44,716 nucleotides of DNA, from IMG/VR virus record IMGVR_UViG_3300027987_000068, positions 1-44,716 of that record; one strand, given 5' to 3'. Below the pieces are notes generated by a model. It did no database searches, was not told where the DNA came from, and saw nothing but the letters and a program-made list of their open reading frames with translations. Shown here piece after piece: positions 8,444-42,543 of the stretch. Both the position numbers and the translations under genes were made by a program. The DNA comes from a virus. The number at the start of each line of letters is the position of its first letter. Positions within the stretch are counted from its first letter, which is position 1.

Positions 8444-8444
8444 C

Positions 8445-8633
8445 ATGGGCGCCCGGAGCTCGAATGTGTGGTCGGTCCTCGAGACGCTGATCCGCTCGCC
8501 GTGGGCGTGGATCGTCGGAGGGCTGATCGTCGGCGTCGGCGTGTTTCGTCTATTCACGCTCGACGAGCTCGCCGACGCGCTCTCGAGAGTGTTCGCCGCG
8601 CTCGGCGCGGCGGGAGGTAAGCTCCTACCATGA
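8445..8633 (+). CDS. Short single-pass membrane protein
   Basis: A 62-residue protein from ATG 8445, one base after the previous stop. It has one strong membrane segment at about residues 17-36 (PWAWIVGGLIVGVGVFRLF) and a small amphipathic tail. It overlaps the spanin gene by 4 nt. By position it belongs to the lysis cassette; it could be a pinholin-like or regulatory peptide, but nothing beyond topology supports that. Confidence 0.4.
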   Translation: MGARSSNVWSVLETLIRSPWAWIVGGLIVGVGVFRLFTLDELADALSRVFAALGAAGGKLLP

Positions 8634-16208: not shown

Positions 16209-17098
16209 GCCGCCCGGAGCTCCCGCCCGGGATCCACCTCGGCGTCGGCATGGGCGATTATCTCGCGCTCCCGTACGCGAGCGCGTCCGGGCTCGAGCTC
16301 CTCGACAAGAGCCCGAAAAAGTACCGGCACGCGCTCGAGCATCCGATCGAGGAAACGCCGGCGATGCGGCTCGGGACGGCGCTCCACCTCGCGGTCCTCG
16401 AGCCCGACACGTTCGGCGCCCGGTACATCGTGATCGGCCGATGCGAGGGCCGAAAGAAAGACGGCGAGAGGTGCCAATACCAAGGGAGCACGTATCGCGA
16501 CGGGCAATCGTTTTGCGGGACGCACGACCCGGCCAAGGGAGAGCCGCTCGCGCCCGGCGTCGTGATCCTCGAGGAGCCAGCTCGCGACGACGTCGTCGGC
16601 ATGGCGGACGCGATCCGAGCTCACGCTCGCGGCTCGTCGCTTTTCGACGGCGCCGGCGCGTTCGAGGCGACGGTCGTATTCGACGATCCGGCGACCGGGG
16701 TCCGGGTCAAGATTCGACCGGACCGGCTCGTCGACCGGGCCGGCATGCTCGTCGAGCTCAAGAGCACGCGCGACGCGTCGGATCGGTTTTTCCCGAAAGA
16801 CAGCGAGAACCGCGGTTATTTCCGAAAGCTCGCGCTGTACCGACGCGGGCTCCGCGCGGCCGGGTTCCCGTACAAGAGCGCGGCCGTGCTCGCGGTCGAG
16901 TCGGAGGCGCCATATGATCTCGTGCCGTACCTCGTCGACGAGGGCGATCTCGACGGGCTCGAGGGCGAGCTCGACCGGCTCCTCGCGCTGTACGCGGAAT
17001 GCTCGAGCTCGGGCGTGTGGCCGGGATACGCGGAGGAGTTTCAGCTCTTGAGGCGTCCGGCGTGGGCGCGCAATCGCGACGAATTTTCGTCGTTCTAG
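16205..17098 (+). CDS. RecE-like PD-(D/E)XK exonuclease
   Basis: A 297-residue protein from ATG 16205. Typical exodeoxyribonuclease VIII-type motifs are present: GTALHLAVLEP with His61, Glu154 in FEATVVF, Asp173 in RPDRL, Glu184-x-Lys186 in VELKST, then a helix with YFRKLALYRRG. It should digest double-stranded DNA ends to expose single strands for the annealing protein encoded next. An unusual insert at about 80-107 holds Cys80, Cys90, Cys104 and His107, a probable zinc knuckle between the first His and the catalytic core. Functional pair: the RecT-like gene at 17131. Confidence 0.8.
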   Translation: MSRPELPPGIHLGVGMGDYLALPYASASGLELLDKSPKKYRHALEHPIEETPAMRLGTALHLAVLEPDTFGARYIVIGRCEGRKKDGERCQYQGSTYRDGQSFCGTHDPAKGEPLAPGVVILEEPARDDVVGMADAIRAHARGSSLFDGAGAFEATVVFDDPATGVRVKIRPDRLVDRAGMLVELKSTRDASDRFFPKDSENRGYFRKLALYRRGLRAAGFPYKSAAVLAVESEAPYDLVPYLVDEGDLDGLEGELDRLLALYAECSSSGVWPGYAEEFQLLRRPAWARNRDEFSSF

Positions 17099-17130
17099 TG
17101 TCGTAATTTCTCACACGGGGGAGGTAGCAA

Positions 17131-18030
17131 ATGTCGGAGGGAACGGAGGTCGTCAAGCGGGCGGACGAATACGTCCGGGACGTGTCAGCGTTCGGGAGCG
17201 GGTCGGATTTCAACAGAGCTCAGCGCGTCGCATCGGCGCTCGCGGCGAGCGACATCGTGCCGGCTCAGTTTCAAAAGAACCTCCCGAACGTGCTCGTCGC
17301 GATGGAATACGCGAACCGGCTCGGCGCGAGCGTGCTCGCCGTGATGCAAAACCTCGACGTCATCCACGGCCGGCCCGGGCTCCGCGCGAGCTTTCTGATC
17401 GGTACCGTGAACGCTACGGGCCGGTTCTCGCCGATCCGGTTCCGCTGGCAAGGCGAGGAGGGCACCGACGCGTGGGGATGCCGCGCGGTCGCGATCGACC
17501 GGGAGTCGGGCGAGGAATGCGTCGGCCCGCTAATCACGGTCGCGCTCGCGAAAGCCGAGAAATGGTACAGCAAGGCCGGGTCGAAATGGCAAACGATCCC
17601 GGAGCTTATGCTCATGTATCGGTCGGGCGCATGGTGGACGCGCGTATATGCTCCGGAGCTCGCGCTCGGGCTGCACACGACCGACGAGCTCGAGGACGTC
17701 GCGGCGGTCGCCGCGCCGGCGAACCTCGAGGCGGCAGCCGCCGCGCTCGATCGTCGGGACGGGCCGACGCCGATCGTCGGCGAGGAAATCCCGGAGGCGG
17801 AGGTCGTGAGCTCGGAACCGTCGGAACCGGAGGCGACGAACGCGCAAATTGCCGGGCTGATCGACCTACAGGAAAAAGCGACGGATGCCGGGCTCCGGCT
17901 CGCCGCGGAGGACGTCGCGGCGATCGAGGCGGCGATCTCGACGCGTGACCGGTCGGCGGTCCGCAAATGGACGAAAACGCTCTCGAGCATGCTCGCGCAC
18001 GCGTCGGCCGAGCCGACGCTCGGAGTATGA
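17131..18030 (+). CDS. RecT-like single-strand annealing protein
   Basis: A 299-residue protein from ATG 17131 with a GGGGGAGG ribosome site after a 32-base gap. The core at residues 27-110 (AQRVASALAASDIVPAQF, then NLPNVLVAMEYANRLG, then HGRPGLRASFLIG) matches a phage RecT-type family that anneals complementary strands. After about residue 190 comes an acidic low-complexity linker and a C-terminal helical domain (about 235-290), perhaps a host single-strand-binding-protein contact. It pairs with the RecE-like nuclease upstream and overlaps the ATPase gene by 4 nt. Confidence 0.8.
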   Translation: MSEGTEVVKRADEYVRDVSAFGSGSDFNRAQRVASALAASDIVPAQFQKNLPNVLVAMEYANRLGASVLAVMQNLDVIHGRPGLRASFLIGTVNATGRFSPIRFRWQGEEGTDAWGCRAVAIDRESGEECVGPLITVALAKAEKWYSKAGSKWQTIPELMLMYRSGAWWTRVYAPELALGLHTTDELEDVAAVAAPANLEAAAAALDRRDGPTPIVGEEIPEAEVVSSEPSEPEATNAQIAGLIDLQEKATDAGLRLAAEDVAAIEAAISTRDRSAVRKWTKTLSSMLAHASAEPTLGV

Positions 18031-19382
18031 CCATGAGCGCGCATACGACGATCGTCCGAATTATCGCCCGGGATTTTCAAGGGCTCCGCGCGGCTCGCGT
18101 GAAGCTCACGGACGCCGGGCTCGTGCGCGTCACGGGCAAGAATGGCTCCGGCAAGAGCTCGCTCCTCCGCGCGATCTCGGCAGCGCTCGGAGGCGCGGCG
18201 GAGGTCCACGTCCGCGCCGTGAACGATGCAAGCGCGGACGGCACGGCCGAGGTGGAGCTCGAGCTCTCGAACGGGTTCAGGATCCGGCGCAAGCTCACCG
18301 AGGCGAACCCGAAAGGATACCTCGCCGTGATCGGGCCGGACGGCGGGAAATACGGGCAAGGCAAGCTCGACGACCTCGTCGGCCCGCTGTCGTTCGATCC
18401 GCTCGCGTTTTTCGGGCTCAAGCCGGCCCGGCAAGCCGAGATCCTCCTCTCGCTCGGCAGCGATCCCGAGCTCGCCGCAAAGCTCGAGGCGAGCCGGCGC
18501 GGCGAGGCGGAGATATACAACGCGCGGACGCCGTGGATCTCGAAGCAACGCGCCGCGGCAAAGGTGCCGAAACCCGAGGGCGCCAAGCCGGAGCGGATCG
18601 ACGTCTCGGCCGAAATGACTCGGCTCCGCGAGCTCCAAGCTCGCGACCGTGATCTCGGCGAGCTCAAGAGCCAGCTCGCGACGTGTGAGTCGACGGCGCG
18701 GCGTCGGCTCGAGGCGGTGGAGGACGCCGAGGCGGCCGTCGAGAAAGCGCGAGCCGCGCTCCGGATGGCCGAGGCGGAGGTCGTGCATCGGCGCAATCTA
18801 TTCGAGGAGGCGGAGAACGAGGCGGCGACGCTCTCCGACGAGATTGCCGAATACGCCGACCCGGCTCCCGAAATCGAGGAGGTCGCGGAGCGGATCGAGG
18901 CGGCCGACCGGGTCGCGCTTGAGCTCATGCCGTGGCGTGCATGGGAGGAGGCGCAACGCGACAACGCGGAGGCGGCCGACCGGGTCGTCGAGCTCACGCA
19001 CGAGCTCGAGGCAGCGGCAGCCGCGCGGCATGCGATGATCGCGGACGCCGGAATCCCGATCGCCGGATTGAGCTTTGACGAGCACGGCGCGCCGATGCTG
19101 CACGGTCGTCCGCTCGAGCTCGCGTCGGGCGGCGAGCGGATCCGGCTCGCTGTCGAGGTCGCGCTCGCGGTCGACCCGGCGCTCGGAATCTGTCTCGTCG
19201 ACGAGGCGAACGATCTCGACCTCGACGCGCTCCGGGCTCTGCACGACGAGGCGATGGCGCGCGGGTTTCAATTGGTCGTCTGCCGGATCGGGCTCGAGGG
19301 CGACGGCGAGGTAATGGTCGCCGACGGCGTCGCGCTCAGCGACGGCGAGACGCTCGAGGAGCCGGAGGAGGTCGACGCATGA
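18027..19382 (+). CDS. SMC/RecF/RecN-like coiled-coil ATPase
   Basis: A 451-residue protein from ATG 18027; ATG 18033 is a second start. Walker A is GKNGSGKS (37-44), the ABC signature is LASGGER (about 365-371) and Walker B is GICLVDEAND (about 387-396). The middle (about 195-350) is a Glu/Ala/Arg coiled coil, shorter than in true SMC proteins. Such phage ATPases usually sit beside recombination genes and act in DNA end processing or repair. Sequence alone does not separate a RecF-like role from an SbcC-like one; no SbcD-type nuclease is seen next to it. Confidence 0.75.
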   Translation: MTMSAHTTIVRIIARDFQGLRAARVKLTDAGLVRVTGKNGSGKSSLLRAISAALGGAAEVHVRAVNDASADGTAEVELELSNGFRIRRKLTEANPKGYLAVIGPDGGKYGQGKLDDLVGPLSFDPLAFFGLKPARQAEILLSLGSDPELAAKLEASRRGEAEIYNARTPWISKQRAAAKVPKPEGAKPERIDVSAEMTRLRELQARDRDLGELKSQLATCESTARRRLEAVEDAEAAVEKARAALRMAEAEVVHRRNLFEEAENEAATLSDEIAEYADPAPEIEEVAERIEAADRVALELMPWRAWEEAQRDNAEAADRVVELTHELEAAAAARHAMIADAGIPIAGLSFDEHGAPMLHGRPLELASGGERIRLAVEVALAVDPALGICLVDEANDLDLDALRALHDEAMARGFQLVVCRIGLEGDGEVMVADGVALSDGETLEEPEEVDA

Positions 19383-27948: not shown

Positions 27949-29570
27949 ATGACGACGCTCGGCGACCTCCTCCTCGAGCGTGTCGGGTCGGCTCCGCCGT
28001 CCGTGCTCGAGCAAGGGATCCGCCGAGCTCGCGCGCAAATCGGGATCGCTGAACCGCGCGCCGATCCGCTCGACGCGCCGCTCGATTGGGAGGCGTGGGT
28101 CCGTGAGCTTTTCCCCACCGCGCCGCTTGGAATTGGGCATGGGAGATCGAGAGCCCGGACGACGAGGCGGACCCGTTCGTCGGGATATGGCCTCGAGGCG
28201 GAGGCAAGAGCACGACGGCCGAGCTCGTCGCTGTCGCGCTCGGCGTCCGCGGTGTACGCCGTTACGCGTGGTACGTCCGCGAGACGCAAGTGCAAGCGAA
28301 CGATTCGCTCGACAACGTCGGCGCGCTCCTCGAGTCGGATTCGATCGACCGGTACTACCCGGAACACGCTCAACGCCGGCTCTCGAAATACGGGCATTCA
28401 AAGGGCTGGAATTCCTCGAGGCTCGCGACGGCCGGAGGGTTTACGATCGACTCTCTCGGGCTCGACACGGCAGCGCGCGGGCTCAAGGTCGGCGAGGTCC
28501 GCCCGGACCTAATCATCCTCGACGATATCGACGGGCTCCACGACTCCGCCGAAACGACCCGCAAGAAATTCGACACGATCACGAAAACGCTCCTCCCGGC
28601 CGGCACGGCGCGGACGGCTGTCCTCGCGATTCAAAACCTAATTATCCCGCATGGCGTGTTCGCCAAGCTCGCCGACGGGCGCGCGGATATGCTGGCGCGC
28701 CGGCGCATGAGCGGCCCGCATCCGGCGATCGTCGACCTCGAGACGTCGACCGTCGAGGAGGGCGGCCGGCTCCGCGCCGTGATTACCGGCGGCCGGGCGA
28801 CGTGGGAGGGACAATCGCTCGAGGCGTGTCAAACGCTGATCGACCTAATCGGGCTGAAATCGTTTCTCCAAGAATGCCAACACAACGTCACACACCGCGA
28901 GGGCGCGTTGTGGCAACCCGAGCTTTTCCGGCACGTCTCGAGCCCGACGACGTTCCGGCGCATCGCGATCGCGGTCGACCCGTCCGGAGGCGGCGACGAG
29001 ATCGGGATAATCGCGGCTGGCGTGACGCACGACCGACGGTACCGCGTGCTCGCCGACGTGACGCAAAAGGGCCGGCTCGGCCCGCTCAATTGGGGCGCGA
29101 AAGCCGTCGAGCTGTACGACGAGCTCGAGGCGGACCGGATCGTCGCCGAGCGGAATTTCGGCGGCGATATGGTCGAGTCGAATATCCGCGTCGCTGCCGG
29201 CGAGCGGCGCGTGCCGGTCGAAATGGTCACCGCATCGCGCGGCAAAGCGATCCGCGCCGAGCCGGTCGCATCGCTGTACGAGGACGGGCTCGTCGATCAC
29301 GTCCCGGGCTTGACCGCGCTCGAGACGGAGCTCACGACGTGGATCCCGGGCGACAAGTGGAGCCCGAACCGGCTCGACGCGCTCGTATGGGTTCTAACCG
29401 AGCTCGCGCTCAAGCCGAAAAAGCGGGTCGACGTGTATTACGCCGGCATGGACGCCGACAAGAAACGGGAGGAGTCGTGGCAAGGCAAAGGGAATGGCAA
29501 GGCTGGCACGGAACCATTTTCGAGCTCGCCGAATGGCTCACAGAATGGGAGCGGGCGGGCCGGATCGTGA
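27949..29570 (+). CDS. terL: Terminase large subunit, with an apparent -1 frameshift near 28107-28128
   Basis: The motor and nuclease that cuts and packages the genome. The N-terminus reads from ATG 27949 to about 28116, then must move to the frame of 28116-29570; the second frame has a TGA at 28104-28106 and no start before the Walker A. The joined protein is about 540 residues: WVRELFP near 47-56, Walker A PRGGGKSTT at 82-90, Walker B LIILDDID at 188-195, and nuclease acidic motif AVDPSGGGDEIG (Asp344), then AERNFGGDMVE. A canonical slip heptamer T-TTC-CCC lies at 28110-28116. A missing C in the 4-C run, or one base elsewhere in 28107-28128, would also restore the frame. Confidence 0.85.
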
Positions 29571-29734
29571 CGGACGCATTCGGTCGGCCGCTGATCCTCG
29601 GCCCGGTTACGGTCATATCGGCCGACGAGGAGTCATCGGCGATTATCGCTTTCCTGATCGCGGTATGGGTCGACGTGCCCGGCTCCGCGCCGAGCTGGCG
29701 CGCGGATCCCGACAGCTCCGGAGCGGCGCCATGA
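29477..29734 (+). CDS. Hypothetical protein overlapping the terminase end
   Basis: An 85-residue protein from GTG 29477 with a good ribosome site (GGGAGGA) inside the terminase 3' end, overlapping it by 94 bases. It contains IFELAEWLTEWERAGR and a hydrophobic SSAIIAFLIAVWV stretch (possible membrane segment near 55-67). ATGA-coupled to the next gene. Function unknown. Confidence 0.45.
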   Translation: MARQREWQGWHGTIFELAEWLTEWERAGRIVTDAFGRPLILGPVTVISADEESSAIIAFLIAVWVDVPGSAPSWRADPDSSGAAP

Positions 29735-30021
29735 GAGCCGATCGGGTCGTGACGTTCGCGCGGTTCCGATCGTGGGATCTATGGGACGGCATCCGCGTAC
29801 ATCGTACGCTCGTGCTCGAGGACGGATGCGAGCCGCAAGAGCTCCGGCCGAACGACGCGCCGGAGGAGCACGCGGCCCGGGCGTTCGAGGCGGCGACGAG
29901 GCATATCCCCGAGCGGCTCCTCCCGCTGCCGGCGCTCCCGGGCGCCGAGCGGCAAATCAGCCGGCGCGGCAAATGGGCACGGATCGAGCATCGCCGGCGG
30001 GCGAGGGAGCGGGCCGAATGA
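29731..30021 (+). CDS. Hypothetical protein, 96 residues
   Basis: ATG 29731, ATGA overlap. Aromatic start (FARFRSWDLWDGIRVHRTL), an acidic middle and a strongly basic C-terminus. No motif or family recognised. Coupled to the HTH gene. Confidence 0.4.
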   Translation: MRADRVVTFARFRSWDLWDGIRVHRTLVLEDGCEPQELRPNDAPEEHAARAFEAATRHIPERLLPLPALPGAERQISRRGKWARIEHRRRARERAE

Positions 30022-30236
30022 GCGCGACGCTCCCGCCGCGGATGCGGCAAGTCATCACGCTCGTTTGTGAGGAGCGGCTCACGTACCCGGAGGTCGCCGA
30101 CCGGCTCGAGATATCGCTCTCGACGGTCCGGACGTACGTCTCGGAGATCGCCACCCGGGCACGGCTCGAGACGGGCGAGGAGCTCGAGCCGCGCCGCGCC
30201 ATCGCGCATTTCTACCGGCAGCAAGCCGCCGGGTGA
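30018..30236 (+). CDS. LuxR/GerE-type HTH regulator-like protein
   Basis: A 72-residue protein from ATG 30018. LPPRMRQVITLVCEERLTYPEVADRLEISLSTVRTYVSEI is a textbook LuxR-type four-helix DNA-binding domain (Leu-x-x-Arg, then Tyr-x-x-Val-Ala, then Leu-x-x-Ser-x-x-Thr-Val-Arg). No sensing domain. It sits between terminase and portal, followed by a gap with 10-bp direct repeats, and may control late genes or be a packaging accessory. Confidence 0.65.
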   Translation: MSATLPPRMRQVITLVCEERLTYPEVADRLEISLSTVRTYVSEIATRARLETGEELEPRRAIAHFYRQQAAG

Positions 30237-30323
30237 GGCTCCTCCCTCCGATACGACCGCGCTCCGATACGTCGGCCGGGAGCGCCGATACCGCGCTCGA
30301 GCTCGAGGCTGTACGCTCTCGGC
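30237..30323 (+). promoter_or_regulatory. Short gap with direct repeats before the portal gene
   Basis: CTCCGATACG occurs at 30247-30256 and again at 30263-30272 (16-bp spacing), with a shorter CCGATAC at 30286-30292. Just downstream lies the GTG of the portal. The gap follows the HTH gene, so the repeats are candidate sites for that protein, although they could be remnants of coding sequence. Confidence 0.35.
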
Positions 30324-32621
30324 GTGGCTCAAGATTGGCTCGGGCGGCTCCTCGGCCGTGTGGATTTCGCCTCGCACGAGGCGACTCCTAACGGATCCCG
30401 CAACGGTGCATCCGTCGCCCGAGGCGCCTCCGAGGCGAAAGGTGTAACGCTCGGCGCCGGCGTGATCCCCGGGACATCCGGGTACCAATTTTTCTCGCCG
30501 GACGGCCGGGTTTTCTACTCGGCGCAAGGCTCCGGCTCCGACGTCGACGCCGTCTCGCGCAACACGGCGCTCCTCGCGTCGGCGTATCTCTATGTCGCGA
30601 TGCGCTGGCGGATGCGAAAGCTCTCCGAGCCGCCGCTCATGGTCGTCGAGGAGGATAGCGACGGGACGGAGAGGTGGATCGAGGACCACCCGCTCGCCGA
30701 GCTCCTCGAGAACCCGTCGCCCGATTACGATATGGGCGAGCTCATCGCGCGGACCGTCGCATACATCGACCTCACCGGCTCGGCGTTGTGGGTCAAGGAT
30801 CCGACGCGCGGCGGGCTGATCGGGCGTTTAACGCCGTTCTCCGGCGAGGAATTCCGCGTCGAGCCAGCCGCCGACCGGATATATGGCCGGTTCCTCCTCG
30901 ATGTCGACGGCCGCGGGCAATTCTCGCGCGTCAAGGCTCCCGAGGAGGTCGTGCATTTTCAGGAGCCGAACCCGCTCGATTGGTCGCGCGGGATCTCGAA
31001 AGTCGACGTCGCGTTGCAAATGCTGAACCTCGGGCAAGCGGCGATCGCGGCGACGAAAGACATCCTCCGGAATTCGTTGTTCCCGTCGGTCGTGATTCAA
31101 TCCGCGTCGGATTGGAACCCGAGCCCGGACGAATGGGAGGCGTACAAGCAAGCCGTCGATTCGTACGCCGACCGCGACAAGCGGGGCAAGCCGCTCGTGT
31201 TGCTCGGCGGCGGCACCGCGACAAAGCTCGCCGCGACGATGAAAGACCTCCTCCCGGGCGACATCCTCTCCCGGGTCGAGGCGACCGTCTCGGCCGTGTT
31301 CGGCGTTCCCGCGGTCGTGCTACAGTATCAAATCGGGATGGAAAACGCGCCGTGGTCGCAAATGGGCGAGGCGCGGCGCATGGCGTACGACGACACGGTC
31401 GTCCCGGATTGGAACACGATCGAGCGTACCTCGACGCGACAGCTCCTCCTCGCGCCGACGACCGTCGGCGGCCGGCCACCCGAGACGAACCGGAGCCGGC
31501 GGATCGCGTTCGATAAGACGGACGTTCGGGCTCTACAAATCGACGTCGTGCAAATGTCGGCCGTCGCGGTCCAGTGGGAGAAAATTGCATCGCTGAACGA
31601 GCGCCGCGCTCTCGTCGGGCTCGAGCCGGTCGAGGATCCGGCAGCCGACGAGATCCCCGAGCTCACCGCGCCCGAGCCGCCTCCGGCCGGCGGCGATTTC
31701 TCGAACCCGTTTGCGAACGACCTCGAGCCGCTCGACGCCGAGGACGTGACCGCGGCGAGCTCCCCCGTGCCGCTCGAGCGTAAAGCGGCGCCCGAGCTCG
31801 TGTGGTCGCATTTCGATCGGTCAACGAAAGCGGCCGGCGACGAATGGGAGCCGCCGATCGCGTCGGAGCTCGCGCTCGAGCGCGACGCCGTCGTCCGGAT
31901 CGCCGAGCGAACGCTCAGCGGCAAGACGGGCCGAGCCGGGCTCGAGACGAAAGCCGTATCGGACGACGATCTCCGCGCGTTCCTCGAGGAGCTCGACAGT
32001 TTTATCAAGACGCGGGCGACGCCGCGGCTCCGCGCAATCGCGTATCCGCTGATTTTCGGCACGGCGCGTGCCGGCGTCACGGCGGCCGCCGAGACGCTCG
32101 GGCTCTCGTTCCGCGTGTTGCAACCCGGGCTCCTCGATTACGCGTCGCGCGAGACGGTATTCCTCGCGTCGGTAATGGGCGAGACGCTCGGGACGCTGAT
32201 CGCCGAGCTCGTGCAAACCGGGCTCGAGGAGGGCGACACGGTCGGTAAGCTCGTTCAGCGGATCCGCTCGAGCGAGGCGGCTTTCGGCCGGACGCGTGCA
32301 AAGCTCGTCGCGCGGACGGAAACGACGAGGGCGTGGAATGGTGCCCAACGCGCGACGCTCTCCGATTACGAGGCCCGGACCGGGAACGCCGTTTTCAAGT
32401 CGTGGCTCTCGGCTCGCGACGCCCGCGTCCGGCCCGAACACGTCGCGCTCGATGACGGCAAATATCTCCCGATCGACGCCGCGTTCGATAACGGGCTCCT
32501 CGCGCCCGGCGAGCCGAATTGCCGGTGCACGCTCACCTATTCGCTCGACGAGGTTCCCGCTCCCGTCGGCGCCGCTGCCGGCGCCGGCCGGCGCGGTGGA
32601 TCCGGGGAGGCAAACGCATGA
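30324..32621 (+). CDS. Portal protein fused to MuF-type head morphogenesis domain
   Basis: A 765-residue protein starting GTG 30324. Residues about 50-430 match the HK97-type portal: SDVDAVSRNTALLASAYLYVAMRWRMRKL, WIEDHPLAELLENPSPDYD, AYIDLTGSALWVKD, QMLNLGQAAIAATKDILRN and GVPAVVLQYQIGMENAPWSQM. After a Pro/Glu linker (about 450-490), residues 540-740 look like the phage Mu gpF/SPP1 gp7 head-morphogenesis domain: LVARTETTRAWNGAQR, FKSWLSARDARVRPEHVALDD and the CRC near the end. It forms the DNA gate of the head. Fusion of portal with MuF is seen in some phage lineages. Overlaps the protease gene by 4 nt. Confidence 0.85.
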   Translation: MAQDWLGRLLGRVDFASHEATPNGSRNGASVARGASEAKGVTLGAGVIPGTSGYQFFSPDGRVFYSAQGSGSDVDAVSRNTALLASAYLYVAMRWRMRKLSEPPLMVVEEDSDGTERWIEDHPLAELLENPSPDYDMGELIARTVAYIDLTGSALWVKDPTRGGLIGRLTPFSGEEFRVEPAADRIYGRFLLDVDGRGQFSRVKAPEEVVHFQEPNPLDWSRGISKVDVALQMLNLGQAAIAATKDILRNSLFPSVVIQSASDWNPSPDEWEAYKQAVDSYADRDKRGKPLVLLGGGTATKLAATMKDLLPGDILSRVEATVSAVFGVPAVVLQYQIGMENAPWSQMGEARRMAYDDTVVPDWNTIERTSTRQLLLAPTTVGGRPPETNRSRRIAFDKTDVRALQIDVVQMSAVAVQWEKIASLNERRALVGLEPVEDPAADEIPELTAPEPPPAGGDFSNPFANDLEPLDAEDVTAASSPVPLERKAAPELVWSHFDRSTKAAGDEWEPPIASELALERDAVVRIAERTLSGKTGRAGLETKAVSDDDLRAFLEELDSFIKTRATPRLRAIAYPLIFGTARAGVTAAAETLGLSFRVLQPGLLDYASRETVFLASVMGETLGTLIAELVQTGLEEGDTVGKLVQRIRSSEAAFGRTRAKLVARTETTRAWNGAQRATLSDYEARTGNAVFKSWLSARDARVRPEHVALDDGKYLPIDAAFDNGLLAPGEPNCRCTLTYSLDEVPAPVGAAAGAGRRGGSGEANA

Positions 32622-33388
32622 GCAAGCTCGACCGGTCGCGCCTCGAAATGAAAGCGCTCGGCGTCGACGATGACGCCCGGACGTTCGAGGGCCTCGCGTC
32701 CGCATGGTCGCTCGATCTCCAAGCCGATCGGATCGTGCCCGGCGCGTTCAAGCGATGGATCCGGGAATGGCGCAAGAGCGACCGCGTGCTCCCGCTCCTC
32801 GATTCGCACAATCCGTGGACGATCTTTACGACCGTCGGCAAGCTCCTCGACGCCGAGGAACGCGACGACGGCTTGTGGACACGCTGGCGCATCATCCCGG
32901 GACCGAAAGGCGACGAGGTGCTCTCGCTCCTCTCGAGCGAGGACGGCGGCCCGTTCGTCGACTCAATGTCGATCGGGTACCGCGCGACGCGTTGGGAGAT
33001 CGAGCACGACGACGAGCTCGACGTCGACGTCCGCGTAATCAAGGAAATCCAGCTCGAGGAGGTGTCGCTCGTGCGGTTCCCGGCTCAGCCGGACGCGACG
33101 ATCGACGCCGACTCCGTCCGCAAATCGCTCGAGGAGCTCGTCGAAGCGACTCCGACCGCTCAGCGCGCCGAGCTCAAGAGCGCGCTCTCGGCCGTCGCGG
33201 ACAAATGCATCGGCGGAGCGTGCAGCAAAAGCACGGCGCCGCTCGAGGAGGACGATTCAGCTCCGCCGGATCCGGCCGGCGGCGACGATGACGGAGAGCC
33301 GCCGGATCCCGGGCTCCTCGATTCGATCAAGCTCCGCCGACTCCGGCTCCGTCGGTCGGCAACCATTCCCGAGGAGGTTGTAACATGA
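32618..33388 (+). CDS. Prohead protease (HK97 family, S78)
   Basis: A 256-residue protein from ATG 32618. The catalytic His64 lies in LLDSHNP and Ser118 in DSMSIGY, with the partner Glu in IQLEEVSLV (about 144-152). It cleaves scaffold and capsid N-termini during maturation. After residue 165 the chain becomes disordered, acidic and then Arg-rich, a region that could serve as scaffold. Overlaps the capsid gene by 4 nt. Confidence 0.9.
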   Translation: MSKLDRSRLEMKALGVDDDARTFEGLASAWSLDLQADRIVPGAFKRWIREWRKSDRVLPLLDSHNPWTIFTTVGKLLDAEERDDGLWTRWRIIPGPKGDEVLSLLSSEDGGPFVDSMSIGYRATRWEIEHDDELDVDVRVIKEIQLEEVSLVRFPAQPDATIDADSVRKSLEELVEATPTAQRAELKSALSAVADKCIGGACSKSTAPLEEDDSAPPDPAGGDDDGEPPDPGLLDSIKLRRLRLRRSATIPEEVVT

Positions 33389-34767
33389 GCGACACCGACC
33401 GGCAAAAGGATCTCGAAAAGATCCTCGCCGAAGCCGACCGGCTCCAAGCGTATTACGCCGAGATCGACCCGGCCACCAAGAAAACGCGGCGATGGGTGAA
33501 AGAGGACCGCGAGACGTTCGAGCGGCTTTGCGCCGAGGGCGCAGAGCTGCAAGCCGAGATCGAGGCGGAGGCGAAATACGCGGAGCTCGAGCGGCGCCGC
33601 GAGCAACAGTCCCGGCTCGCCGGCGACCCGACGCTCCCGGCGTCGCGCTCGCACGCGCAAGCGACGGCCGACGCGAAAGACGTCGCCGGGTACGTCACGC
33701 TCGGCGACGCCGTCGTGATGTCGGAGGCGTTTCAGGATTTCAGCGCGTCCGGGTACGCGACCGGCACAAAGGCGGTCGTCCAGCTCGCCGGCGCGCTGAT
33801 CGGGCGCAACGTGGTCCACGGTCCGCGCGGCGAGCCGCTGATCGCGCTGAACCGCGAGGGTCGCAAGATGTTCGAGAGGTTCGCCCGCGAGAGCAAGGCG
33901 GTCCCGACGCTCGGCACCGGCGTCCTCGATCCCGACCGGGTCGCGCGAATCCCGCAAGTCACGGCGGACGAACGGCTCCGGATCCGTGACGTGATCTCGA
34001 CCGGGCAGACGGGCGCGGGCTCCGTCGAATACGTCCGGGAGGACAGCTCGACGAACGCCGCGGCGCCGACCGCGCATGGCGCGATCAAGCCGGAGGAATC
34101 GGTCGTGTATTCGCTCCAATCGACGCCCGTGAGGACGGTCGCCGGATGGATGCCGGTTCAGAACCAGCAGGTCGAGGACTGGGCTCAGCTCCGCGGGCTG
34201 ATCGACGGCCGGCTCCGGTACAGCGTGCAGCGGACGGAGGAGGAGCAAGTCCTGTACGGCGACGGGACGGGCGTCAACCTCGAGGGGATTTGCGTCGTCG
34301 CCGGCACGACCGACATCGCGACCAATGGCCGGTATTCGGGCGCGACGCATACGCTGATCGACGTCGTGAAAATGGGCATTTCCGACGTGATGGTCAGCGG
34401 GTACGAGGCGAACGCTGCCGTAATGCACCCGTTCGATTGGGAGGCGATTTGCCTCGAGAAAGGGACCGACGACCGGTACGTGTGGGTCGTCGTGACCGAC
34501 GCGACCGGCTCCCGCATTTGGGGCGTCCGCGTCGTCGAGGCGATCGGCGCGGAGTCGCGGTCGACCGGGCAGCGGAACATCATCGTCGGGGACTGGAATA
34601 TGGGAGCTCAGCTCCTCGACCGAATGGTCCTCACCGTTCAGGTCGGGCTCGTCGACGACCAATTCGTCCGGAACATGCGGACGATTCTCGCCGAGGAGCG
34701 GATCGCGCTGCCGATCTATGCTCCGGCAGCGTTCGCGTTGTTCGAGACGGTCGCGGCCGGCTCGTAA
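33385..34767 (+). CDS. Major capsid protein, HK97 fold
   Basis: A 460-residue protein from ATG 33385. Residues 1 to about 80 form a coiled-coil delta/scaffold domain with heptads and Arg/Glu, probably removed by the protease. The mature part has HK97-type features: VVQLAGALIGRNVVHGPRGEP, VARIPQVTADERLRIRDV, the E-loop region, YGDGTGVNLEGICVVAGT and NAAVMHPFDWEAICLEKG, and ends in a hydrophobic FALFETVAAGS. It is the principal shell protein. Gene order protease-capsid is typical. Confidence 0.9.
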   Translation: MSDTDRQKDLEKILAEADRLQAYYAEIDPATKKTRRWVKEDRETFERLCAEGAELQAEIEAEAKYAELERRREQQSRLAGDPTLPASRSHAQATADAKDVAGYVTLGDAVVMSEAFQDFSASGYATGTKAVVQLAGALIGRNVVHGPRGEPLIALNREGRKMFERFARESKAVPTLGTGVLDPDRVARIPQVTADERLRIRDVISTGQTGAGSVEYVREDSSTNAAAPTAHGAIKPEESVVYSLQSTPVRTVAGWMPVQNQQVEDWAQLRGLIDGRLRYSVQRTEEEQVLYGDGTGVNLEGICVVAGTTDIATNGRYSGATHTLIDVVKMGISDVMVSGYEANAAVMHPFDWEAICLEKGTDDRYVWVVVTDATGSRIWGVRVVEAIGAESRSTGQRNIIVGDWNMGAQLLDRMVLTVQVGLVDDQFVRNMRTILAEERIALPIYAPAAFALFETVAAGS

Positions 34768-34771: not shown

Positions 34772-35407
34772 GTGAGCGATTCGCGGCGGTCGGGCGGGCG
34801 CCCGGGAGGTCGAGCTCCGATAGGAGCGCGCTCCCCCGTCCGGCCGCCGCGTCTCATGGACGACGACGACATATCTCGAGCGCGGAGGCTCGCAATGGAC
34901 CGGAGACAGCGACGGGAGGCACGACGCGAGGAGCAAGCCGAGGCCCGGGCGCTCCGCAACGCTCGGCGCATCCTCGCGGCCGGACAGCCGCTCCCGCCCG
35001 AGCTCCGGGCGTACGAGCTCCTCGTCGTCGGAACCGGGAAAGGGCTGCCGGGCGCTCCGGCAAACAAGATGCTCGCCGGCCCGGAGGAGGACAAAGGCGG
35101 CGAGGTCGTACCAATCGAGACGCTCGTCTCGACCTCCGATTTCGAGCCGGACGTTCCGGATATCACGGAGGAGGAGCTCGACGCCGAGCTCAGCGCTCCA
35201 CCCGAGCCCGACGCGCTCCCCGAACCCGATCCGCTCGACCCGCTCGAGGGGATCCCGTTCGCCAGCTCGAGCGCGGAGGAGCTCGCGCGCTCGAGGGCGC
35301 TCATCGCGGAGGATTTCGACGGCGTGCAGCCGTCCGGCGTGACCGGCTTTACGAAAGCCGACGTCGAGGCGGTCCTCCTCGAGACGGTCGACCCGCGCGA
35401 CGACTAG
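34772..35407 (+). CDS. Hypothetical neck-region protein, acidic
   Basis: A 211-residue protein from GTG 34772, four bases after the capsid stop; ATG 34856 is an alternative start (183 residues). The N-terminus is Arg/Gly/Pro-rich, then a charged helix (RRARRLAMDRRQRREARREE type), and a long acidic Glu/Asp/Pro stretch. It ends VTGFTKADVEAVLLETVDPRDD. Located where head-tail adaptor or decoration genes sit. No fold recognised. Confidence 0.4.
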   Translation: MSDSRRSGGRPGGRAPIGARSPVRPPRLMDDDDISRARRLAMDRRQRREARREEQAEARALRNARRILAAGQPLPPELRAYELLVVGTGKGLPGAPANKMLAGPEEDKGGEVVPIETLVSTSDFEPDVPDITEEELDAELSAPPEPDALPEPDPLDPLEGIPFASSSAEELARSRALIAEDFDGVQPSGVTGFTKADVEAVLLETVDPRDD

Positions 35408-35415
35408 GGCCGACG

Positions 35416-36942
35416 ATGCTCCTCAAAAAATGCGTATGTGGCAAGCGAGGCGGCTCGCGCGACGAGCGGCACGGGATCCCCGTGCACCGCTGCCGGTGCG
35501 GCATCATGCGGCAAGCCGTCTCGATGACGGAGGCCGAATACCGAGCATTTTACGCGACCGGGTACCTCGAGGACGTCTACACGCATTCGCTCGAGCAAGA
35601 TCGCCGCGTCGCGGAGCTCCGGCTCGACGCATACCGGCTCGAGGTCGGGCAACGGCTCCTCGATCTCGGCGCCGCTAATGGCGCGTTCGTCCGGGCCGCG
35701 AACGAGCGCGGGCTCGACGCATGGGGTCAGGATCTCGCTCGCGCTGCCGATTCGGACCGAACATACGTCGGCGAGCTCGCCGATCTCAATTTCCCGAGCG
35801 CATGGGCCGACGTCATCACCGCGCATGATGTCCTCGAGCACGTCGTCGACCCGAACGCATGGCTCGCGGAGGTTCGGCGCATCCTCCGCGGAGGCGGCGA
35901 GCTGATCGTCGATTTCCCGCGGTTCCATCACGAGAGCGGCGCGCATCACTGGAAACCGATCGAGCATTTGTGGTGCCTCGACGACGAGCAATTGGTCGGG
36001 CTGATCCGGGCCGCCGGGTTCTCGATCGCGAGCGTCGAGCATCCGATCGAATCGAAAACGGTCGTCCGCGCGATCGCGCCGCGCGTGACGCGCTGCCGTA
36101 TCCTCGTTCCGCCCGGGATCGGCGACGGATATTGGGTCGCCGCAAAGCTCCGCGGGCTCCTCGAGTCGCGCGGCATCGGGCCGGCCGACTCCGAGATATG
36201 GGTACACGACGGCGGCCCGCGCCGTGCCGGGGAGCTTTGGTCGCTCCTACCGTTTACGACATTCGGAGGATACGCTCGGGTCGCGAAAGGCCCGCACCTC
36301 GACGCGGCGTACAAACCTCCCGGCGTCGCCGTGCAAGAAAACGTCGCCGGGTTCGATCTTTTCCTCTCGTTCAACGGCACGCTCGAGGGCGGCAAGAGCC
36401 TCGACGACGCGTTGCCCGGCCCGACCGATTGGTCGCTGCCGCTTTTCCATTCCAAGGGCCAGCAGGACGCGGAGGAGCGATTCCGTGAGCGCGGTCCGTA
36501 CATCGCCGCGGCATTTTGGGATCACGGGATATACAAGTCGTGGCTCGAGCAATTCGGCGAGGCGGCGATCCTGAAAAACCTCCGGCTCCTCCTCGGCCGC
36601 GGGTTCCGGGTCGTGCTCATGGGCGCCGAATGGGATCGCGGGAAAATCAGCTCGCGGCTCGCGAAACAAGAGCCGGCCGCCGAGGATATGCTCGGCCGGA
36701 CCTCGTTCGAGGAGCTCCTCGCGCTGATCCGCGGCGCGTCCGGCGTGTTCGGGTTCCCGGCCGGCAATACGCTCCTCGGCCCGTTCCTCGGCCGGCCGAC
36801 CGTGCTCCTATGGAACGGGCGTTTCCCGCGCTCATTCTGGACCGATTGCGCTCCGCCGGACGCGCCATATACGGCCGTCTCGACGCGGCTGAGAAAGCCG
36901 TCGCTCGCCGCGTGGCACCTCGCGGAGATGCTCCGCCGATGA
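35416..36942 (+). CDS. Methyltransferase-glycosyltransferase fusion
   Basis: A 508-residue protein from ATG 35416. Cys6, Cys8, Cys26 and Cys28 make a small zinc knuckle. Residues 75-215 are a class I SAM methyltransferase: LLDLGAANGAF (81-91) is motif I, GQDL is motif II, ADVITAHDVLEHV (about 132-144) is motif IV, and RRILRGGGELIVDFPRF follows. From about 228 comes a second domain: RILVPPGIGDGYW, LFHSKGQ, FRVVLMGAEW and GFPAGNTLLGPFLGRPTVLLW, close to GT9 glycosyltransferases of the heptosyltransferase type. Methyl and sugar transfer may be linked. Start of a four-gene cassette, each overlapping the next. Confidence 0.7.
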   Translation: MLLKKCVCGKRGGSRDERHGIPVHRCRCGIMRQAVSMTEAEYRAFYATGYLEDVYTHSLEQDRRVAELRLDAYRLEVGQRLLDLGAANGAFVRAANERGLDAWGQDLARAADSDRTYVGELADLNFPSAWADVITAHDVLEHVVDPNAWLAEVRRILRGGGELIVDFPRFHHESGAHHWKPIEHLWCLDDEQLVGLIRAAGFSIASVEHPIESKTVVRAIAPRVTRCRILVPPGIGDGYWVAAKLRGLLESRGIGPADSEIWVHDGGPRRAGELWSLLPFTTFGGYARVAKGPHLDAAYKPPGVAVQENVAGFDLFLSFNGTLEGGKSLDDALPGPTDWSLPLFHSKGQQDAEERFRERGPYIAAAFWDHGIYKSWLEQFGEAAILKNLRLLLGRGFRVVLMGAEWDRGKISSRLAKQEPAAEDMLGRTSFEELLALIRGASGVFGFPAGNTLLGPFLGRPTVLLWNGRFPRSFWTDCAPPDAPYTAVSTRLRKPSLAAWHLAEMLRR

Positions 36943-37493
36943 CGTGGCTCGACGAGCTCGTCGATGCATGGTGGCCGGACGACACGCTCCGACCGGAGTC
37001 GGACGTCCTTGCGTGGCTCGAATCGAAACACGCGGTCGCCGAGCGGCTCGAGCCGCGCTCGATCGTCGAGCTCGGCGTCCGCGCCGGGTATTCGGCGTTC
37101 GCGATGCTATCCGGCGCGCCGGGCGCGCGGTATCTCGGGCTCGACGTCGGGTATCCGTCGATTTACGGCAGCGAGGAGGGCGCGCTCCTGCACGGCCGAG
37201 AGCTCCTCGCCCGGTTCGACGCAACGATCCTCGAGGTCGACACACATGCCGTGCGGCGGCTGCCGGTCGCGGACCTTTGGCACGTCGACGCCGATCACAG
37301 TTTCGGCGGCGTGGCGATGGATCTCGACCTCGCGTTCCGGAGCGGCGCGCGGTACGTGCTCGTCGACGACTACCGGTGCGGGCCGGTCGTATGCGCGGCC
37401 GTCGACGCGTGGGCAGCCGTCAACGCGCTCGACGTCGAATTGATCGACGACGGTTTTCGGGGGAGCGCGTTGCTCGCGCTGGCATGCTCGTGA
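36939..37493 (+). CDS. Class I methyltransferase (Methyltransf_24-like)
   Basis: A 184-residue protein from ATG 36939 in an ATGA overlap. IVELGVRAGYSAFAML (about 42-57) is motif I; YLGLDVGYP is motif II; WHVDADHSFGGVAMDLDLAFR and ARYVLVDDYR correspond to the acid-rich later motifs that bind metal or catechol-like sugar O-methyltransferases. This subfamily includes sugar O-methyltransferases, which fits the neighbouring glycosyltransferases. Overlaps the next gene by about 10 bases. Confidence 0.65.
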   Translation: MTWLDELVDAWWPDDTLRPESDVLAWLESKHAVAERLEPRSIVELGVRAGYSAFAMLSGAPGARYLGLDVGYPSIYGSEEGALLHGRELLARFDATILEVDTHAVRRLPVADLWHVDADHSFGGVAMDLDLAFRSGARYVLVDDYRCGPVVCAAVDAWAAVNALDVELIDDGFRGSALLALACS

Positions 37494-38299
37494 GAGCCGT
37501 CCCGCCGTTTCGGGGGGAGCTCGGCATCCTCCTCCGGTTTCATGCCGCGGCGGTTCGCGCGCTCGATCGTCCGCTCCTCGTCGTGCACGAGCCCGGGCTC
37601 GAGGCGGTATATCCCGACGTCGAGCGCGAGCTCACGAGCTCGACCCGGCCCGACATTGATCGTCGCTGGAATTACGCGCACGACGGAGCGTACGTCGGCG
37701 CGTGGCGTGATACGCTCCGCGCCCGCGGCCACGAGCTCGTCGAGCCCGACAAGACGAACCGTCTACCGATCCGCCCGTTCCGGCCCGAGCCGTTCGTACG
37801 GCAACGTCCCGATGCGAGCTCCCACGTCGTCGTATGTCCGCGCCGGCGCGCGTATGGTCCGTCCAAGAATTGGGACGCGTGGCCGGTCGTCGCGGCCGGT
37901 ATCCGGAAAACGCATTCCGTGTTCGTCGCCGGGCTGCCCGAGACGTCGTACGACGTGCCGGCCGACGAACGAGCGTGGGATTACGAGCGCCCGCTCGACG
38001 CGACAATCGAGGCAATGCGGACCGCGTCGCTCGTCGTCGCGACCGCCTCCGGGCTCTCGCTCCTCGCCGTGATGTGCGGCGCGCCGCTCCTCCTCGTCGC
38101 GTCTCGAGGCGGGCTCGTCGCGCCCGGCCCGACCGGCGCGCATCCGCGATACTGGCGGATCCCCGTCGCCGACTATTACGACCCGCTCAACCATTCCGGC
38201 TCGCTGATCGACGTTGTCGATCGCGGCTGGCAACGTCCGATCATGGTCGTGCAACGCGCTCGAGCCCGGGCCGCGAGCCCGGAGGGAGCTTTCGCGTGA
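37484..38299 (+). CDS. Glycosyltransferase, GT9/heptosyltransferase-like
   Basis: A 271-residue protein from ATG 37484, or GTG 37490 in a GTGA overlap. Patterns: GELGILLRFHAAAVRAL, VVVCPRRRAYGPSKNWDAWP, SVFVAGLPETSYDVP, and a nucleotide-sugar site TIEAMRTASLVVATASGLSLLAVMCGAPLLLVA. These fit ADP-heptose-type glycosyltransferases (C-terminal Rossmann half). The N-terminal half is short, so it could be a single-domain acceptor or a partner of the fusion protein upstream. Overlaps the GT2 gene by 4 nt. Confidence 0.6.
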   Translation: MLVRAVPPFRGELGILLRFHAAAVRALDRPLLVVHEPGLEAVYPDVERELTSSTRPDIDRRWNYAHDGAYVGAWRDTLRARGHELVEPDKTNRLPIRPFRPEPFVRQRPDASSHVVVCPRRRAYGPSKNWDAWPVVAAGIRKTHSVFVAGLPETSYDVPADERAWDYERPLDATIEAMRTASLVVATASGLSLLAVMCGAPLLLVASRGGLVAPGPTGAHPRYWRIPVADYYDPLNHSGSLIDVVDRGWQRPIMVVQRARARAASPEGAFA

Positions 38300-40029
38300 G
38301 GCTCGCGGTCGTGACGTGTTGTCGGGATTACGGGCGATTCCTCGACGATTGGGCTCGCTCGCTCGTCGCGCTCACGGTCCGGCCCGAGCTCGTCGGGATC
38401 GTCGACGCTGGCTCGAGGGACGACACGCCCGACCGGATCCGCGAGGCGAGCGCATACCTCGAGGCGGCCGGGATCCGCGTCGAGACGCGCCGGATCGACA
38501 GCCGTAACCTCGGCACCGCACGGAACGCCGCGGTCGAGATCGCGGACGGGTTCGAGTGGGTCCAACATTTCGATGTCGACGATACGGCGATGCCGCATAT
38601 GGTCGCCGATTTCGCGGAGCTCGCCGATCGCGCCGACGTGATCCCGGCCGGGTACGAGCGGAACGGCAACCTCGCGGCCGGGCCTCGGAACCGGAGGCGG
38701 CTCTACAGCTCGAGCCGCGGCGCGTCGACGCTCCGGTCCGGAGCTCCGGCGTCCGGCGTGTCGCCGTTCCGCCGCTCATTTTGGGAGCGCTCGCCGTACC
38801 GCGAGGATATGCCGGGCGGGTGGGATACCGCGTTGTGGATCGGGTTTGCACACCTCGACGCGCGGTTCGTCCCGACGCGTCGGCCCGTATTCTGGTATCG
38901 GCAACATGCCGGCTCGACGTTCAACGATCGGCGCAAGAATGAGCGCCGTACGCAATTCGTCGGATGCCAGCTCGCGGCGCTCCGGCGAGGCGACAGCGGC
39001 GTTACCGTGCTCGTGCCGTGGCAACCCGACAATGGACCGCGCGACGCTGCGTGGGCATGGGTCCGGCGCCGGTACGAGGAGCTCCGGCCCGATTGGCAAA
39101 TCGTCGAGGGCTCATGCGGCGCCGGCGAATGGCGGAAAGGGCTCGCGGTACAGGCCGGGCTCGCTCAAGCTCGAGGCGACGTCCTCGTGATCGCTGACGC
39201 GGATTGCGTGGTCGACCTCGAGGCGATCGACGAGGCGATCCAGCATGTACGCGCCGGCGCCGCGTGGGCGATCCCGCACCGGCTCGTGCACCGGCTCGAC
39301 TCCGCGTCGACGTCGCACATCCTCGAGAGCGAACCTCGAGGCGTGGAGCTCGGCGGCCGGACGATCCGCAAGCCGTACGAGGGTTACGCGGGTGGCGGCG
39401 TGTTCGTCATCCGGCGCGACCGGTACGAGGCGTCCGGCGGGATCCCGCACCGGTTCAGCGGGTGGGGCGCCGAGGATGAAGCGCTCGCCGTGATCCTCGA
39501 CGCGCTGATCGGCGATCACGTCCGGCTCGAGGCGGATTTGTGGCATTTGTGGCATCCGCCCGGCCGGCGCGGCTCGCATCCGCGTTACCAAGAAAACCGG
39601 CGGTTCCTCTCGGCGATCAAGCGAGCGGCGGCCGATCCCGACGCGTTGTGGTCCGTGCTCGCGGCGCTTGAGGCTGGCGCGACCGTGAGCTCGAGCCGAG
39701 GCACGGAGCTCGTTCGCATGATCGCGCTCGAGTCGTTCCGGATCGGCACGCGTACGATCGTACGCGGGCAAGCATTCGCCGCGACGCCCGAGGAGGTCCG
39801 CCGGTTCAGGATCCGCGAGCAAAAGCTCGCCGTCGAGCGATATTCCGGCGTCGGCCGTCGGGCCGCCGAGCTCAAAGCCGCCGCGGCCCGGATACCCGAC
39901 GGGCAACAGCGCCGGCTCGCGATGGCCGGCACGAGGACGCGCGCCCGGGCCGAGCTCGACGGCGTGCTCGCGCTCACGCTCCCCGAACCCGATCCGTTGA
40001 GGCGGGTCGACGAGGCGGACGATGCTTGA
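38296..40029 (+). CDS. Double GT2 glycosyltransferase with a neck-like C-terminal domain
   Basis: A 577-residue protein from GTG 38296. Domain 1 (1-225) is a GT-A fold: VVTCCRDYGRFLDDWARSL, VDAGSRDDTPD, and DVDD at 93-96. Domain 2 (from about 237) starts VLVPWQPDNGPRDAAW, has DADC at 301-304 and GWGAEDE at 389-395, typical metal-binding and acceptor-site motifs. Residues 475-515 (MIALESFRIGTRTIVRGQAFAATPEEVRRF) look like the small phage neck protein with pattern M-x-ALxxF..G..T..RG..F, so a glycosyltransferase seems fused to a virion-type domain. Overlaps the connector gene by 8 bases. Confidence 0.65.
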   Translation: MRLAVVTCCRDYGRFLDDWARSLVALTVRPELVGIVDAGSRDDTPDRIREASAYLEAAGIRVETRRIDSRNLGTARNAAVEIADGFEWVQHFDVDDTAMPHMVADFAELADRADVIPAGYERNGNLAAGPRNRRRLYSSSRGASTLRSGAPASGVSPFRRSFWERSPYREDMPGGWDTALWIGFAHLDARFVPTRRPVFWYRQHAGSTFNDRRKNERRTQFVGCQLAALRRGDSGVTVLVPWQPDNGPRDAAWAWVRRRYEELRPDWQIVEGSCGAGEWRKGLAVQAGLAQARGDVLVIADADCVVDLEAIDEAIQHVRAGAAWAIPHRLVHRLDSASTSHILESEPRGVELGGRTIRKPYEGYAGGGVFVIRRDRYEASGGIPHRFSGWGAEDEALAVILDALIGDHVRLEADLWHLWHPPGRRGSHPRYQENRRFLSAIKRAAADPDALWSVLAALEAGATVSSSRGTELVRMIALESFRIGTRTIVRGQAFAATPEEVRRFRIREQKLAVERYSGVGRRAAELKAAAARIPDGQQRRLAMAGTRTRARAELDGVLALTLPEPDPLRRVDEADDA

Positions 40030-41850: not shown

Positions 41851-42543
41851 ATGCTGTACAACTTGCTCGACCTCGAAACCGTGCTCCGCAAGATCGGGCG
41901 GGGGACGGTATGGTACGCGCACGACGGGACCGGCCCGCTCGATATCGGGTCGCCGATCAAGTGGGACGGCACGACGGCTCTACAGCTCGCGCCGATCTCC
42001 GACACGGAGGGCGAGATCGTCCGGAACCCGAATGCGGACATTGCAACGCTCACGCTGCCCGAGCTGAGCGGAACCGCGGTGCACGAGGCGACCGCGGTCG
42101 GAGGCAACCCGACGCTGTCCGTTCCGTTGTTCCTCGCGGATCCCGACCTCCTCGCGATCCTCTCGGAGACGGGCCTCGCGGGAATGGGGCATTTTCGCGT
42201 TCGCGATGTGTCCGGCGTAACGATCGTCATTTTCCCGGAGGCGCTTTTCCGGAAAGACGACGGCACGTACGCTCAGCTCAGTTTTACCGGCGGGACGTGG
42301 CTCCTCGACGGTGGCGCGCTCGGCGCGGCGCGCACGACGCTCCTCGGGCATTCGACGTGGTTTTGGAATGCCTACATCATGCGTCCGGAATTCAGTTTCC
42401 GGGGCGGACACGGCGACGATGCCAAGAACATCGAGACGGTCGAAATCCGCGGCATGTTCCATTCCGGGATGCCGGACGGACAACGGATTTTCACGATCGG
42501 CGATCCGACGCTCGTCGGTATCGACCTCGAGGGAGGTAGCTAA
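41851..42543 (+). CDS. Major tail tube protein
   Basis: A 230-residue protein from ATG 41851 with a strong GGAGGAGG ribosome site. Beta-rich with TLTLPELSGTAVHE, TLSVPLFLAD, LSFTGGTWLLDGG and a final GDPTLVGIDLEGGS. Tail tube proteins have this size, position (between terminator and chaperones) and need for high expression. No extra Ig-like domain is apparent. Confidence 0.75.
   Translation: MLYNLLDLETVLRKIGRGTVWYAHDGTGPLDIGSPIKWDGTTALQLAPISDTEGEIVRNPNADIATLTLPELSGTAVHEATAVGGNPTLSVPLFLADPDLLAILSETGLAGMGHFRVRDVSGVTIVIFPEALFRKDDGTYAQLSFTGGTWLLDGGALGAARTTLLGHSTWFWNAYIMRPEFSFRGGHGDDAKNIETVEIRGMFHSGMPDGQRIFTIGDPTLVGIDLEGGS

Follow-up and report, generated by a model that had tools for sequence, protein, structure and literature searches.

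The 44.7-kb virus record IMGVR_UViG_3300027987_000068, analysed here over its whole length (positions 1 to 44,716, hereafter the window), carries a cassette of four enzyme genes (35416-40029) between its major capsid and head-tail adaptor genes, and the comparisons presented below suggest that this cassette is a virion O-glycosylation module, a reading to which we would give a probability of about 0.77. The first-pass annotation of this sequence had already proposed glycosylation of a virion protein with O-methylation of the sugar, as in some actinobacterial phages, and the proposal is supported by the homology of one half of the largest enzyme, of the glycosyltransferase (GT) family GT2, to mycobacteriophage enzymes, by the use of the same genomic slot in phage Optimus, by the methyl- and glycosyltransferases that cluster O phages have in their virion operon and by published glycans on capsid and tail tube proteins. 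Specifically, the enzymes, acting in the cytosol, would decorate virion proteins with a short glycan bearing methyl groups in late infection, the likeliest acceptor being the serine that ends both the capsid and the tail-tube subunit. Attachment of the first sugar to serine could be the work of one of the GT-A domains in the fused GT2/GT7-like enzyme or of one of the two GT9-like domains; the remaining glycosyltransferase domains would extend the glycan, and the two methyltransferases would add methyl groups, either to the sugar itself or at the level of its nucleotide precursor. Such a glycan would coat the particle and alter what its surface presents. Glycan chemistry, the order of the sugars, O-methylation of the sugar, the initiating enzyme, the acceptor residue and the benefit to the phage are what we infer from these comparisons.

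The genes concerned run from the upstream part of the virion operon (terminase, portal/head-morphogenesis fusion, protease, capsid) through a gene for a 183-residue protein and the four enzyme genes to the adaptor, the neck and tail genes and the tape measure gene:

28290 to 33388, plus strand: terminase large subunit, portal/head-morphogenesis fusion and maturation protease, the upstream part of the virion operon
33385 to 34767, plus strand: major capsid protein (PF05065, E = 2.5e-39; phrog_10), with the C terminus ...FETVAAGS and its proposed acceptor serine
34856 to 35407, plus strand: 183-residue Arg-rich/acidic protein, non-enzymatic, with no family match and a C-terminal PSBD-like motif
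35416 to 36942, plus strand: fusion of a methyltransferase (Methyltransf_23, E = 2.7e-15) and a GT9-like domain (weak Glyco_transf_9 match, E = 7e-4), 508 residues
36939 to 37493, plus strand: S-adenosylmethionine (SAM) methyltransferase-like protein of Methyltransf_24 type (PF13578, E = 1e-4, under the Pfam cut-off), 184 residues
37484 to 38299, plus strand: GT9-like glycosyltransferase (PF01075 through family members, and model fold), 271 residues
38296 to 40029, plus strand: two-domain GT-A glycosyltransferase, N-terminal half GT2 and C-terminal half GT7-like, 577 residues
40022 to 40570, plus strand: head-tail adaptor (phrog_442, E = 2e-21), the downstream border of the cassette
41851 to 42543, plus strand: probable tail tube protein, assigned from its location ahead of the tape measure gene and from synteny in relatives, with the C terminus ...GIDLEGGS

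From the 508-residue fusion onwards, neighbouring genes overlap by 4, 10, 4 and 8 bases, the last overlap reaching into the adaptor gene at 40022, so that the four enzyme genes are coupled to one another and to the adaptor in a single run. Gene calls, coupling and virion-gene flanks confirm the earlier placement of the cassette between capsid and connector in the morphogenesis block; gene content, coupling and operon slot, as well as the family of the fused glycosyltransferase and the conservation of C-terminal serines described below, are direct results of the computation. The interval given earlier, 34772-40029, does hold the enzymes, but its first gene (34856-35407) encodes none, and at 34772 there is a GTG codon in frame with that gene, ahead of its start. 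Promoters and terminators in the cassette region showed no excess over shuffled sequence.

Relatives of the cassette among isolated phages were searched for by tblastn in 50,697 phage records. The GT2 half of the 577-residue enzyme is 39-41% identical to Tweety gp104 and Optimus gp15, from mycobacteriophages of cluster F1 and cluster J, while its C-terminal half gave weaker matches in Streptomyces and Gordonia phages and in other mycobacteriophages. In Optimus, gp12-gp21 fill the same slot from major head protein to head-tail connector, the order being major head protein gp11, glycosyltransferase, kinase, methyltransferase, two glycosyltransferases, galactosyltransferase, protease, two small genes, glycosyltransferase and head-tail connector gp22. 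They include a homologue of the GT2 half (gp15, about 40%), a galactosyltransferase of the C-half type (gp17) and a methyltransferase (gp14); unlike in the window, the genes are separate and not fused, a kinase and other glycosyltransferases are added, and the methyltransferase is of another family. Corndog and Catdawg (cluster O) have four consecutive methyl- and glycosyltransferase genes (one O-methyltransferase, three glycosyltransferases) within the virion operon, and one of the glycosyltransferases is related to the C-terminal half of the window enzyme (27.8%). In Catdawg, however, these genes sit between portal and protease, not between capsid and adaptor, and both phages differ from the window in having their own gp38-type glycosyltransferase and a different methyltransferase, and in lacking the methyltransferase-GT9 fusion. 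In Tweety the GT2-half homologue gp104 adjoins a methyltransferase, and Che8 encodes, next to gp110, a methyltransferase-GT2 fusion and a glycosyltransferase picked up by the C-half profile (loci L075 and L077; E = 1e-27 and 2e-73 in L075); in both phages the glycosylation genes lie at the right end of the genome, outside the head operon, unlike those of the window. Glycosyltransferases of both Che8 and Catdawg match the C-half profile, and a methyltransferase profile from Streptomyces prophages also matches Optimus gp14 and Tweety gp103; the window's own two adjacent methyltransferases belong to other families than those of Che8, Catdawg and Optimus. The four-enzyme fused organisation, earlier called unfamiliar, therefore has kin arrangements in Optimus and Corndog, but its exact fusions were not found in the 50,697 records.

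The proteins modified in such phages have been described. Che8, Corndog and Myrna are named as phages with glycosylated proteins in PMC12363180, which gives Che8 gp110/Corndog gp38 as the glycosyltransferase essential to capsid glycosylation; PMC12619734 places the glycans on the C-terminal ends of the capsid and tail tube proteins, PMC11600133 gives these two proteins as the targets of the cluster O enzymes, and PMC11256854 likewise states that they carry glycans. Capsid modification in Corndog was suspected earlier, together with the description of an O-methyltransferase and three glycosyltransferases in the cluster O virion operon (PMC4351075).

Beyond isolated phages, alignment scans with the glycosyltransferase and the methyltransferase-GT9 fusion gave clear matches in about 50 viral loci and three actinobacterial genome loci (designated by L numbers), and synteny was followed by local tblastn and iterative profiles in 17 non-redundant contigs with both GT-A domains (the GT pair). 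The first-pass annotation had raised the co-occurrence of cassette and capsid elsewhere as a point to check, and the GT pair does lie within the virion operon, beside virion genes, in 16 of the 17 contigs, with a capsid type that varies. More specifically, it lies between capsid and adaptor in 11 contigs, with both borders visible in eight of them (the window, L008, L013, L014, L015, L021, L022 and L061) and the other three cut (L002, L026 and L027); between head-closure and neck genes in L003, L017 and L020; and after the tape measure gene in two contigs (L023 and L025). No structural gene was found near the pair in L016. L021, L022, L026 and L061, the last a locus in a Streptomyces genome, have an SU10-type capsid (PF17236 for L021), a family that differs from that of the window capsid. 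Many independent contigs carry this gene pair in a comparable slot, so the placement of the cassette is not due to chance.

The constant part of the cassette is the GT pair, which usually stands last in it, while the partner enzymes vary: a double methyltransferase and a methyltransferase bearing a CTP-dependent riboflavin-kinase domain in L002 and L014, GT9 and a methyltransferase in L008 and L027, a methyltransferase in L015, and a PIG-L deacetylase and a methyltransferase in L017. The two GT domains, fused in the window, are separate adjacent open reading frames in the Streptomyces prophages, and the window fusion therefore joins enzymes already working side by side. Some partner genes have features of their own. 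The riboflavin kinase domain (PF01982, E = 7e-15) is at the C terminus of the methyltransferase at L014:7340-8272, with a similar gene at L002:5322-6254; the gene at L017:6390-7193 belongs to the PIG-L family (N-acetylglucosamine (GlcNAc) de-N-acetylase), which hints at GlcNAc in the glycan; and the methyltransferase-GT9 fusions of L036, L037, L046 and L052 reach about 800 residues, with a further C-terminal domain (...FHG.PRP...W...NWR).

The conserved slot also bears on a different target that had been put forward as the alternative, namely a host surface polysaccharide or glycolipid, modified to exclude competing phages in a seroconversion-like manner. GT9-type enzymes are best known from the core of lipopolysaccharide, phage glycosyltransferases for O-antigen conversion exist, and PHROGs files the present glycosyltransferases as ‘moron’. 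However, the genes occupy a late virion operon position, coupled to the adaptor and conserved across capsid types, and the cassette enzymes have no clear membrane segment (maximum 19-residue hydropathy of 1.2-1.4 in three, and 2.0 in a GT9 core helix); the membrane flippase and the bactoprenol glycosyltransferase with membrane segments that mark O-antigen conversion of the gtrABC type were likewise not seen, a GtrB-like profile matching at no better than E = 0.07. In addition, the homologous mycobacteriophage system acts on virion proteins (PMC11600133, PMC12363180). Among 395 actinobacterial genomes, phrog_9549, the family of the GT2 half, reached E = 1e-72 in one, where the match lies in a Streptomyces prophage, and nine others gave weak GT2 matches (E about 1e-9 to 1e-10); an origin from host polysaccharide synthesis was rejected as the leading explanation on the strength of this single strong match in 395 genomes, itself in a prophage. 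Near-absence from these genomes, membrane profiles and operon position together weaken the host-surface alternative, which now appears quite improbable.

A candidate acceptor emerged when the operons were compared. The window capsid ends in ...VAAGS and its tube in ...LEGGS, in both cases with serine after small residues, and in the window lineage and its Streptomyces relatives all capsid and tube proteins end in serine (27/27), compared with 11 of 108 other proteins from the same contigs (p = 6e-20, relatedness not corrected for). The 108 comprise portal, protease, adaptor, closure, neck, terminator, tape measure and cassette proteins, with fused glycosyltransferases counted under both domain names, and some tube assignments (window, Streptomyces contigs) were made by position and synteny; the tube candidate of the window has no PHROG match and is assigned by position and conserved synteny only. 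A C-terminal serine is also found in Che8 (capsid ...NKTGS, tube ...YSDGS), in Catdawg (capsid ...PLVGS, tube ...IKGDS) and in the Optimus tube (...VGLS). Controls, consisting of 19 actinobacterial prophage capsids without a GT profile match in the surrounding sequence (at most about 9 kb on each side, less at contig ends) and nine further phages, ended in serine in about 5 of 28 capsids and 2 of 8 tubes (7/36 together); Phrappuccino was left out of the comparison, as its stretch had no capsid annotation. Collapsed to capsid families, the ending is present in 5/6 against 5/28 controls (p = 0.005), and for tubes in 6/6 against 2/8 (p = 0.009). The presence of glycosyltransferases was scored with profiles built here, because PF00535 alone is too insensitive (it misses Catdawg). 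Three further phages, held out and chosen solely for a glycosyltransferase of the C-half type, were Ser-ended in all six proteins (p = 3e-4 against controls): Babsiella (capsid ...ETAS, tube ...EDGS), Octobien14 (capsid ...AYSS, tube ...GNGS) and Cornie (capsid ...PEGS, tube ...GDGS). That the C-terminal serine of capsid and tube is the glycan acceptor is, on these sequence patterns, a proposition at about even odds. Equally balanced is the broader idea that a free serine at the C terminus, preceded by small residues (typically -GS), could be a convergent acceptor tag, used by one enzyme set on two unrelated virion proteins in many phage groups, in which case tag and glycosyltransferase together would predict glycosylated phages.

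Several observations weigh against virion glycosylation or against this acceptor. The Optimus capsid, distantly similar to that of the window, ends in Phe (...APSF), and Gaia (L070) has a Ser-ended capsid (...SSGS, 5514-6485) and tube (...VVGS, 8073-8660) with no glycosyltransferase detected by the profiles; the ending is therefore not sufficient, and Gaia may have an unrecognised glycosyltransferase, use a host one or end in serine by chance. Other virion proteins end in serine as well (head closure 5/8, tail terminator 4/8). The Ser ending accompanies the glycosyltransferases, yet neither is strictly tied to the other. Furthermore, the window enzymes other than the fused glycosyltransferase had no clear relatives in the isolated-phage records, and specifically none were found for the methyltransferase-GT9 fusion and the 271-residue enzyme; the family assignments of the 184- and 271-residue proteins are each weak when taken singly; and profiles of Catdawg gp36 and Tweety gp108 detected no homologue of the Che8 gp110/Corndog gp38-type glycosyltransferase in the cassette, whose similarity is with different glycosyltransferases of those phages. 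The initiating step would thus fall to another enzyme, and the cassette would work like a Che8/Corndog-type system without being a strict member of it.

The endings of the remaining virion proteins also bear on whether some other one (neck, head closure, tail tip or the 183-residue protein) is glycosylated instead of, or in addition to, capsid and tube. The cassette adjoins the 183-residue protein and the neck genes, and the head-closure endings counted above include that of the window (...EEAGS). The 183-residue protein had no family match in domain searches, but it ends in a motif similar to E3-binding domains of the PSBD type. Small proteins encoded ahead of the adaptor carry this motif too (L013:11778-12413 and L014:11741-12561, the latter with a weak PF02817 match, E = 9e-4, under the cut-off), and in L013 (9995-12118) and L015 (9995-11818) the glycosyltransferase has it as a C-terminal fusion. 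The motif may tether the enzyme to the structure. On the other hand, capsid and tube are the only proteins that end in serine in every instance, the known cases are glycosylated on these two proteins, and the 183-residue protein ends in ...RDD. Another virion target is therefore unlikely, though less so than a host-surface one.

Among the enzymes, the firmest family assignment is that of the 577-residue protein, whose N-terminal half matches GT2 (PF00535, E = 2.2e-19, above cut-off; phrog_9549, E = 1.8e-43; motif HFDVDD) and whose C-terminal half matches Glyco_transf_7C (PF02709, E = 1.5e-7, above cut-off) and phrog_1721 ‘galactosyl transferase’ (E = 6e-18), with the motifs ADADC and GWGAED and an extension of about 130 residues after it. 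The acidic metal-binding motifs (D93/D95/D96, D303-C304 and GWG-ED) are invariant across 10 homologues. The ‘double GT2’ enzyme described earlier is thus a GT2 domain joined to a GT7-like one. The 508-residue fusion consists of a four-cysteine N terminus (a C-x-C...C-x-C pattern, invariant in 8 homologues), a class I SAM methyltransferase (residues ~1-225) and a GT9-like domain (residues ~226-508; PF01075, 19.3 bits against a cut-off of 22). Its family profile matches methyltransferases in the PDB (E = 6e-11) and E. coli heptosyltransferase II (1psw, E = 7e-4), and in the predicted model (mean confidence, pLDDT, 75.5) the methyltransferase part folds like the sugar C-methyltransferases MtmC, KijD1 and TcaB9. 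The top Foldseek matches of this model, to fatty-acid synthase, were discarded (root-mean-square deviation 19-30, TM-score 0.25). For the 184-residue protein, the family profile weakly matches O-methyltransferases in the PDB (E = 0.003) and homologues lie near the methyltransferase-GT9 fusion in L030 and L033, weak but consistent indications of a Methyltransf_24-type enzyme. The 271-residue protein alone has no Pfam match, but Glyco_transf_9 (PF01075) is detected in 3/4 family members (best E = 6e-7) and the family profile matches 1psw (E = 0.004); its low-confidence model (pLDDT 64.7) is nearest, by Foldseek, to TibC, WaaC and 1psw, with a fold similar to that of the TibC/WaaC-type GT9 heptosyltransferases at ~14% identity. 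TibC is a protein O-heptosyltransferase.

These families also bear on whether phage DNA could be the substrate of a sugar modification made or transferred by the enzymes. Phage glycosyltransferases do often hypermodify DNA, but those of the cassette match families of the protein/polysaccharide type and sit in the head operon, and no gene forming hydroxymethylpyrimidine was recognised among the scanned window genes, many of which have no family, in a record that is possibly incomplete. A DNA target is hence the most far-fetched of the readings considered.

This kind of system is already known (since 2023). New, as far as the tools tell, are the fused glycosyltransferase, the methyltransferase-GT9 fusion in such a setting and the uncultured lineage; the C-terminal serine pattern across families is new too, though it may be partly stated in Freeman et al. 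2023. That work is the primary source to which PMC11256854, PMC11600133, PMC12363180 and PMC12619734 refer for virion glycans. Virion glycosylation has so far been reported from a few mycobacteriophages, and the same kind of module would now extend to uncultured phages and Streptomyces prophages with varied capsid types and exchangeable enzymes around a constant GT pair. Ser-ended capsid and tube offer a concrete acceptor candidate and a sequence-based prediction of glycosylated phages, and raise the question of how one enzyme set would recognise two unrelated proteins. Mycobacteriophage glycans shield the particle from antibodies in animals (PMC11256854); for an environmental phage a benefit other than this must be sought.

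Elsewhere in the window, a recombination module with Exonuclease VIII-like, RecT-like and SbcC-like genes lies at 15632-19382, and a 1745-residue protein encoded at 1638-6875 combines a virion structural PHROG match with a domain of the purple-acid-phosphatase N-terminal type.

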